A stretch of 64,000 nucleotides of DNA from Orbus hercynius (lineage in GTDB: Bacteria > Pseudomonadota > Gammaproteobacteria > Enterobacterales > Orbaceae): positions 989,955 to 1,053,954 of the forward strand of contig NZ_RBWY01000001.1 of assembly GCF_003634275.1 (NCBI RefSeq), read 5' to 3'. Numbering within the stretch: position 1 is the first letter of the stretch; the number at the start of each line of letters is the position of its first letter. Below the pieces are notes generated by a model, which saw only the letters and a list, made by a program, of their open reading frames with translations, had not been told where the DNA came from and made no database searches. Positions 12,262-34,649 of this stretch are shown here, piece by piece. The position numbers were made by a program, and so were the translations under genes.

Positions 12262-12654
12262 TTTTAACGCAACACGGAAAAGCGTTTTGGGCACTCATAG
12301 AATTTCATTTCACTAAAATGATAAAGACGATAATACTTATTATGAACATAGACGAATCGAATAACTTTCAAGCGGATAAATTCGTTTTCTAAGAAGTTTT
12401 ATAATAGTGATGATGAAATAAATCAGTATGCGCACATTGAGCCCTAAACAAAATATAAGCTAATAGCATGATTATTCATGCTTTGGCGTATTCTTACTAT
12501 ATAATTGGTCACCGATAAATTAATAAATATCTTTAATCCGAATAAAAACCAGATAAAAAAGCAAACAAAATACAATTTAACGCACTACACCAACCAAACT
12601 TTAGCATAAAAGCAATCAAATAAGGAATAATCATTTTTTTAATGCTAAAAAACC
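12262..12654. other. Intergenic DNA between dusC and the FNR promoter
   Basis: About 390 bases of AT-rich DNA without a convincing gene. The only ATG frame of note (12342-12392) has 16 codons and no ribosome site. A small palindrome GCATGA-TTAT-TCATGC with a short T-run lies at 12466-12484 and shares the 12-mer ATGATTATTCAT with a hairpin in the downstream small RNA candidate (12775-12786). Confidence 0.5.
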
Positions 12655-12696
12655 TTGATATAAATCAAAATATATAGAAAAACTTCGATTTACAAT
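12655..12696 (+). promoter_or_regulatory. Class II FNR-dependent promoter
   Basis: TTGATATAAATCAA (12655-12668) is a perfect match to the FNR consensus TTGAT-N4-ATCAA. A near-consensus -10 element TACAAT follows at 12691-12696. With a start at about 12703 the FNR site centres at -41.5, the canonical position for activation by FNR under anaerobic conditions. No protein gene follows before the terminator at 12811-12839. Confidence 0.72.
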
Positions 12697-12702
12697 GTTT
12701 AT

Positions 12703-12838
12703 TCATTTTCTTTAATTAATGATTACGATTACTTAACGGACAAAATAATTAAAAAAGATAATAATACAACTTCAATGATTATTCATTGTTTTCCTATTCC
12801 TTATTATTTTGCGAACTCATATTGGGTTCGCTTTTTTT
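12703..12838 (+). ncRNA. Candidate FNR-activated small RNA (FnrS-like by promoter and size)
   Basis: The predicted transcript is about 135 nt, begins seven bases after the -10 element of a perfect FNR promoter and ends in a Rho-independent terminator. It contains a hairpin CAATGA-TTAT-TCATTG (12773-12788), then a pyrimidine-rich single-stranded stretch (GTTTTCCTATTCC), then the terminator stem, a plan typical of Hfq-dependent sRNAs. E. coli FnrS is about 122 nt and FNR-activated; I see no clear primary-sequence identity with it. A short frame from 12775 runs through the terminator and is unlikely to be a gene. Confidence 0.55.
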
Positions 12839-12839
12839 T
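12811..12839 (+). terminator. Rho-independent terminator of the small RNA candidate
   Basis: GCGAAC (12811-12816) pairs with GTTCGC (12826-12831) across a nine-base loop and is followed by eight T. It functions only in the plus direction, because the minus strand lacks a U-tract. It lies 48 bases before the distal end of the CRISPR array. Confidence 0.82.
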
Positions 12840-13875
12840 GTTTAGCTTATTGAACAAATAACCGCAATGACAGGTAAAAAAGTGGATTTTTTAAGTTATC
12901 TATGTGGCAGTGAACTACCCGATTGTCTTTTCCGATTAGCTACGCTTTTTCTAAGCTGCCTATGTGGCAGTGAACGCTGATATTCAAAATAGAAATACAA
13001 GTATTGTTTTCTAAGCTGCCTATGTGGCAGTGAACCTGTATCACTCTTAAAGTATTTATTTGCTTTTTTTCTAAGCTGCCTATGTGGCAGTGAACATCTA
13101 CGTTTGTCGCCGACACAATGTTTGATTTTTCTAAGCTGCCTATGTGGCAGTGAACTCGCGGCACAGGAATACGTACTGAATGTTTATTTTCTAAGCTGCC
13201 TATGTGGCAGTGAACGAAAATCAATTAAAACGATTGAGTTTAAACAATTTCTAAGCTGCCTATGTGGCAGTGAACCAACACGATCATGAAATTGATTTAC
13301 TCTTACATTTCTAAGCTGCCTATGTGGCAGTGAACTTAGCTGAACGAAAATAACTTTAGCTTTTTTATTTCTAAGCTGCCTATGTGGCAGTGAACAGCAA
13401 GTAGAGATTTATTAGCTACTCAAAACTTTTCTAAGCTGCCTATGTGGCAGTGAACATGTTTCAGCAAACGATGTAGATGTTTCGAAATTTCTAAGCTGCC
13501 TATGTGGCAGTGAACGGTAACATAATGTTGTGTAATAACAAGCAAATTTTCTAAGCTGCCTATGTGGCAGTGAACGTAGAAAAATCAAAACTATCGAGTT
13601 TAAACAATTTCTAAGCTGCCTATGTGGCAGTGAACCAATAAAATTTTGGACGCTTAGAGCGGATCTATTTCTAAGCTGCCTATGTGGCAGTGAACTTAAG
13701 CTAATTAAAACTAAAGCTAAATCATACTTTCTAAGCTGCCTATGTGGCAGTGAACCACTTACAGAAAATTTAGCTTGAGATGTGATATTTCTAAGCTGCC
13801 TATGTGGCAGTGAACAAAATAATTCGCTTTTCGGAAAATTAATTAAATTTCTAAGCTGCCTATGTGGCAGTGAAC

Positions 13876-13907
13876 ACAATTAATTTTTAGGGGCGCAAGC
13901 CCCTTTT
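13876..13907 (-). repeat. Spacer 25 from the leader, derived from a terminator-like hairpin
   Basis: The spacer contains AGGGGC-GCAA-GCCCCT followed by T residues that run into the repeat, i.e. a Rho-independent terminator on the plus strand. On the array-transcribing minus strand the hairpin remains, but it is followed by A residues, so it should not stop precursor transcription. Confidence 0.7.
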
Positions 13908-14175: not shown

Positions 14176-14327
14176 AAAGTGATATCGCTAATAATAGATT
14201 ACGCATTTTTCTAAGCTGCCTATGTGGCAGTGAACAACGAAGATGAGATTAACAAGAACGATAATATTTTCTAAGCTGCCTATGTGGCAGTGAACAAAGT
14301 GATATCGCTAATAATAGACTACGCCTT
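14176..14327 (-). repeat. Near-identical spacer pair (spacers 18 and 20 from the leader)
   Basis: Spacers 14296-14327 and 14176-14207 differ at two of 32 positions. In crRNA orientation the changes are at guide positions 3 (seed) and 9. One unrelated spacer lies between them. Confidence 0.95.
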
Positions 14328-34190: not shown

Positions 34191-34649
34191 TCAGTGAAAG
34201 ACTAGTGGTACAATTGATTGATGGGTATCTCGACATTTATTATTGAGTAACTCACAGCTATTGAGCTCGCCAATAACTTGTAATGCTTCTTCTTCGACGC
34301 TAGCTAATGACAAACTAAATTGGTTGAAAGTTAAATCATCAGCTGCATGTATTGCATAAGTGAATATTATTTTGGGTTCACTGTCATCAACAATATCTAA
34401 GTAAATTTTAGTAAAATAAATACTTTGATTAATTTGGCTCAGCTCAGCCATGAGTGATATGATGGCCGATAACTTAATTTGTGCGGTGATAACCACTTTC
34501 AAAATATCATCAATAAGCTCAATTTTTGCCTCATATATACCATCGATTTTTTGTAGATAACTAAGATGTATCGTAAAATCATCTTCATCTTGATAAAAAT
34601 CAACATTCATCTTGTTAAGCCATTGGGCAATTTGCGACAGTTCGGTCAT
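34191..34649 (-). CDS. ybjN: YbjN domain-containing protein
   Basis: YbjN is a small cytoplasmic protein of the type III secretion chaperone-like fold; in E. coli it affects motility, stress response and surface traits, but no exact activity is known. The 152-residue product has an N-terminal WLNKMNVDFYQDEDDFTIHL segment and the middle DGIYEAKIELIDD that parallels E. coli YbjN. It lies between grxA and potFGHI, the same neighbourhood as in E. coli (grxA-rimK-ybjN-potF), with rimK missing here. Confidence 0.85.
   Translation of the reverse strand: MTELSQIAQWLNKMNVDFYQDEDDFTIHLSYLQKIDGIYEAKIELIDDILKVVITAQIKLSAIISLMAELSQINQSIYFTKIYLDIVDDSEPKIIFTYAIHAADDLTFNQFSLSLASVEEEALQVIGELNSCELLNNKCRDTHQSIVPLVFH

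Follow-up and report, generated by a model that had tools for sequence, protein, structure and literature searches.

LhrC1-5 of Listeria are sibling small RNAs (sRNAs) whose copies are controlled by one two-component system, LisRK (PMC4132741). The Neisseria RNAs NgncR_162/163 provide a Gram-negative example, in which the sibling copies are adjacent and bind Hfq (PMC9973317). Both sets of CU-rich siblings repress by pairing at ribosome-binding sites (PMC4132741, PMC9973317).

The locus described here lies in a 64,000-nucleotide stretch of the genome of Orbus hercynius (Orbaceae), hereafter the window, where the initial annotation had read an FNR-driven RNA that follows the logic of FnrS. FnrS represses aerobic-metabolism mRNAs, while CpxQ, MicF and OmrA/B, the last in tandem, are envelope sRNAs regulated by CpxR or OmpR. 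No study of sRNAs in Orbaceae was found in the literature searched. Judged by comparison between genomes, the locus belongs to a genuine family of Orbaceae sRNAs that had not been listed before, though it is of a kind already known.

Results

Anatomy of the small RNA locus

The initial annotation had proposed an unrecognised sRNA, distinct in sequence from FnrS, that ends in a Rho-independent terminator about 50 bases before the CRISPR array, and this part of the proposal was borne out. A clean terminator closes the predicted gene (Table 1) ~50 bases before a degenerate CRISPR repeat (about 12888-12915), and a scan of Rfam at curated thresholds matched the CRISPR repeats alone, the sRNA family being absent from that collection. 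The best sub-threshold Rfam match, to the L20 leader, looks like a chance product of AT-rich sequence and a terminator. Folding of the 69-nt RNA (-17.2 kcal/mol, z -7.35) gives two hairpins and leaves the core unpaired; for the longer, 141-nt reading of the transcript the fold z is -3.33. A covariance model built without the window copy (R1) scores that copy at 58.1 bits, and a broader model (R2), the seed of which includes the window copy, matches 12769-12839 at 77.8 bits. The fold score, the homologues found genome-wide and the covariation of the terminator together place the predicted sRNA far beyond chance. The locus seems, on this evidence, to be a real small-RNA gene, with a start ~70 bases further downstream than first proposed.

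Table 1. Features of the sRNA locus and its upstream region (window coordinates).
Feature	Position	Strand	Remark
Exact FNR consensus, TTGAT-ATAA-ATCAA	12655-12668	.	private to the window copy
TACAAT, -10 of the first-proposed FNR promoter (start 12703)	12691-12696	+	not conserved
Three half-sites 11 bp apart: TTTAA 12711, ATTAC 12722, TTAAC 12733	12711-12737	+	putative OmpR/PhoB-family site
-35, CGGACA (C[A/G]GACA in paralogues)	12737-12742	+	17 bp from the -10
-10, AATAAT	12760-12765	+	same distance to the hairpin in nearly all copies
Small RNA, ~68 nt	12772-12839 (predicted start, 12771-12773)	+	family alignment, model hits, fold z -7.35
5' hairpin, CAATGA-TTAT-TCATTG	12773-12788	+	nearly invariant
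Unpaired core, TTTTCCTATTCCTTATT, putative anti-Shine-Dalgarno seed	12789-12805	+	nearly invariant in all clear copies
Intrinsic terminator, GCGAACTCATATTGGGTTCGC and eight T	12811-12839 (stem 12811-12831, T8 12832-12839)	+	covariation

It could be argued that the locus encodes a small peptide, either in a plus-strand frame that begins MIIHCFPIPYYF... (12775-12861) or from the ATG that follows AAGGAATAGGAAAACA on the minus strand, given that an ATG and a Shine-Dalgarno (SD)-like core are present. The plus-strand frame, which at 28 codons is the sole one to overlap the RNA, is, however, lost in relatives through single-base variation in the hairpin loops, the minus-strand frames stop after 2-4 codons in most copies, and promoter and terminator are both on the plus strand. 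We regard a peptide gene as barely credible; no credible open reading frame is present, in agreement with the original reading.

The transcription of the crRNAs, on the minus strand, converges on the sRNA from the side of the degenerate, leader-distal repeat at 12888-12915. Within the array, spacers 14176-14207 and 14296-14327 have almost the same sequence (AAAGTGATATCGCTAATAATAGAT/C TACGCAT/CT), which suggests that diverged versions of a single target were sampled more than once, and a further CRISPR spacer carries a terminator-like hairpin at 13889-13904 (AGGGGCGCAAGCCCCT, then a T-run). In the intergenic spacer upstream of the sRNA (12603-12648), AATAAGGAATAA, the complement of part of the core, lies within an 8-bp inverted repeat (TTTAGCAT/ATGCTAAA); this element is possibly a decayed copy, or it may have arisen by chance.

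Distribution and conservation of the family

When 60 relatives were searched at the DNA level, further copies came to light in the same genome and in a sister species (G001), as did a 23-base core that is perfectly kept in many genomes of one genus. Clear copies were found with the R1 model in 36 of the 44 Orbaceae genomes, and R2 added divergent ones, including those of G011 and G062, two divergent Gilliamella-group genomes in which the UUCCUUAU unit of the core is doubled. Nearly all Gilliamella genomes carry a single copy, as do Frischella and most other Orbaceae. The genome of the window (G000) holds at least six closely similar copies and the sister species six, which is the multicopy arrangement of sibling anti-SD sRNAs. 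Two Orbaceae genomes (G002 and G003) are without a clear sRNA, and from two others, G005 and G008, which belong to one genus, it is missing. Outside the Orbaceae, weak matches appeared in four genomes (395 of the order searched); on inspection these matches were found to lack the core, and they proved to be trailers of tRNAs, a different terminator or a tandem pair with no relation to the family. Elsewhere in the order, a locus designated L131, from a different family, contains two near-identical terminated elements of ~80 nt (2429-2510 and 2785-2866) with near-identical promoter-like upstream sequences. This candidate tandem sRNA pair has only sub-threshold Rfam matches in its vicinity.

The order of elements is the same in all clear copies, the -10 being followed by the hairpin (CAATG..CATTG), the core UUUUCCUAUUCCUUAU, a short spacer and the terminator. 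Across the family the core is almost invariant, and the 5' hairpin is so nearly invariant that it yields no covariation information. Terminator sequences vary (GCGAAC/GTTCGC, CCCAA/TTGGG) with their pairing preserved, and eight of the nine pairs show changes on both sides. The covariation score of the terminator is 0.309, compared with 0.084 in shuffled alignments (0/500) and at most 0.066 when the structure is slid, although the alignment, being fitted to the structure, favours it. The hairpin and terminator, the conservation of which had been put forward as a check on the RNA, are retained in relatives in this manner. The family, its structure and its conserved promoter are well supported by these comparisons.

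In addition to the window copy, the Orbus hercynius genome contains a copy that converges on sotB, another next to a lysR gene (gene names by eye) and three tandem, more diverged copies near a DUF423-like gene (L033 3460-4028). In the sister species two tandem copies lie behind dusC, and the others are found by sotB, DedA/gnd, a pseudouridine synthase gene and mrp (names by eye). The sotB-convergent copy is shared by Frischella and the two species of the window's genus, and this position is probably ancestral because Gilliamella and Frischella have a matching promoter and CCCAA-type terminator. The dusC position is common to the window and the sister species, in which different genes follow the copies. 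The CRISPR neighbourhood of the window copy thus seems incidental, since other copies lie elsewhere and the dusC copies of the sister species precede other genes. Several copies sit directly behind genes (dusC, lysR, sotB and hemW), which would be expected if the element were a dispersed repeat or terminator module and not a functional RNA. Against this reading, nearly every Gilliamella has one copy with an unchanged core and a conserved promoter, pairing is kept despite the changing sequence of the terminator, and homology stops at the promoter and the terminator. A repeat or terminator module is, in our judgement, highly improbable.

The conserved promoter and its candidate regulator

The spacer of the window is homologous to most paralogues from ~12708 to ~12841. 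The duplicated unit therefore comprises the downstream promoter and the RNA, minus the FNR region. This promoter, from whose -10 the hairpin begins ~7 bases downstream in all clear copies, travelled along with the gene at duplication. Its three half-sites are positioned at about -62, -51 and -40 relative to the conserved start, and among 21 promoters of the family pairs of TTWAC are over-represented at spacings of 10 and 11 bp (z ~7), a value that is indicative only as the shuffles were mononucleotide and the sequences are related. Direct repeats of 10-11 bp are typical of OmpR/PhoB-class regulators. The half-sites suggest a regulator of this class, perhaps CpxR, the consensus of which is GTAAA-N5-GTAAA (PMC12802237). 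The TTAAC half-sites match that consensus in part only; the CpxR-type motif is exact in two other copies (TTTAC-N5-TTTAC in L007 and TTTAC-N6-TTTAC in L015), and in the promoter of the window copy it has two mismatches when spaced by N6. The strict promoter motif does not define a wider regulon, as its genome-wide matches were no more frequent than in the control.

A CpxR-like protein is encoded (310 bits, below the curated cut-off of 341, with the next family at 194). Among 15 Orbaceae tested, 12 gave a single match (288-322 bits), a thirteenth gave two pieces, and the protein is missing in G005 and G008, both of which also lack the sRNA. This co-occurrence is weak and only a lead, because CpxR is also present in G002 and G003, where no clear sRNA is seen, and G005 and G008 represent one genus. 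ArcA was also considered, its boxes having a repeat spacing of 11 bp (PMC3798270) that the promoter repeat resembles, yet it is not encoded: the best match to the ArcA model reached 161 bits against a cut-off of 334.

The FNR site upstream of the window copy

The sequence elements on which the initial annotation had built its promoter are both present. The exact FNR site is centred at 12661.5, and the TACAAT places it at -41.5 relative to 12703, the position at which FNR-activated sites of E. coli cluster, that of fnrS being at -42.5 (PMC3688515). Exact FNR sites are expected by chance 0.23 times per 64-kb window and two were seen, the second at 34590-34603 (TTGATAAAAATCAA). For the 509-bp AT-rich spacer between dusC and the CRISPR array the chance of an exact site is p ~0.003, and a -10 of at least 4/6 in register with it is expected in 23% of cases. 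It is unlikely but not impossible that the site arose by chance.

The claim that these elements drive the sRNA was not supported by the comparison of 38 aligned copies, which puts the conserved promoter and the 5' end ~70 bases downstream, so that relative to the conserved start (~12772) the FNR site is centred at about -110. Indeed homology with most paralogues begins past the proposed promoter. No exact FNR box occurs in the 320 bases upstream of any other copy, one-mismatch matches being scattered, and the box is likewise missing from the sister species' syntenic dusC copies; one sister-species copy aligns from about 12649, yet has neither the box nor the TACAAT. The conservation of the box in relatives, which had been proposed as a check, thus fails at the species level. 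The comparison gives no support to the FNR promoter as the main one of the sRNA. That a single anaerobic, FnrS-like RNA is transcribed solely or mainly from it, as the architecture of 12655-12703 and the terminator had implied, is very unlikely, given the downstream promoter, the lack of exact boxes at other copies and the behaviour of the Rfam FnrS covariance model, which gave no match at gathering and none up to E 10 in 12560-12870.

A second, FNR-driven promoter that is private to the window copy is possible, because the genome encodes FNR (233.5 bits against a cut-off of 228). Dual input of this kind would combine the family promoter with a class II FNR promoter starting at 12703 and yielding an anaerobic transcript of ~137 nt that contains the sRNA. 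The exactness of the site, its register and its low probability within the spacer speak for such an arrangement, while the absence of box and TACAAT from all other copies, syntenic ones included, and the second exact match at 34590 speak against it. We consider dual input unlikely, if quite conceivable; the FNR box would provide no more than a further input, confined to the window copy.

Discussion

By analogy with described systems, the Orbaceae RNAs most likely form a family of sibling sRNAs that act by blocking the binding of ribosomes. The core is single-stranded, CU-rich and complementary to the SD sequence, and Hfq is encoded. In the explanation that we favour as a whole, and hold to be reasonably probable, an OmpR/PhoB-class response regulator, for which CpxR is the best present candidate, would act on the 10-11-bp direct repeats of the conserved promoter to switch transcription of the ~68-nt sibling sRNA. 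Hfq would hold the RNA, and UUUUCCUAUUCCUUAU would pair with SD regions (AUAAGGAA / UAGGAAAA), blocking ribosome entry on several mRNAs. Searches with ribosome-binding-site patterns returned SD-level matches only and no conserved target. The shared core-complementary sites that were inspected lie mostly inside genes or belong to different genes (by reading, for example, thiE-like in G001 and lpxK-like in G006). In the Orbus hercynius genome, long complementarity adjoins the start codons of genes for a PerM-like permease, an ABC permease and a TadE/F-like protein and of a frdD-like gene (names by eye), none of which is claimed as a target.

A bolder version, which we think rather improbable, holds that a lineage-specific burst of siblings in the Orbaceae, acting as general SD blockers, is run by the Cpx envelope-stress system, with private inputs added to individual copies, and that the CRISPR-adjacent copy gained an FNR promoter. 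If true, this promoter would tie the common seed to anaerobiosis. The Orbaceae, among them Gilliamella and Frischella, which are symbionts of the bee gut, thereby gain a conserved family of sRNAs that Rfam does not contain. The contrast between one copy in Gilliamella and Frischella and six or more in Orbus hercynius constitutes a natural experiment, in which one could test directly how sibling sRNAs originate and gain separate inputs while the seed is kept.

The family resembles LhrC1-5 in consisting of multicopy siblings with CU-rich, SD-binding motifs (PMC4132741). There is, however, no homology by Rfam scan and the phylum is different; unlike LhrC, the Orbaceae sRNA has one hairpin and a linear core, and its targets and regulator are putative. 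NgncR_162/163 are likewise unrelated by Rfam scan, and the Orbaceae family has at least six dispersed copies. With CpxQ, MicF and OmrA/B, to which Rfam gives no match, the likeness is in the putative response-regulator repeats at the promoter, the regulator in Orbaceae being a predicted one, and, for OmrA/B, in the tandem arrangement of copies. FnrS of E. coli shares the terminated sRNA and an upstream FNR site, the latter in the window copy only. The two RNAs differ in length and copy number, ArcA, the co-activator of FnrS, was not detected in the Orbus genome, and the FNR site is not a feature of the Orbaceae family.
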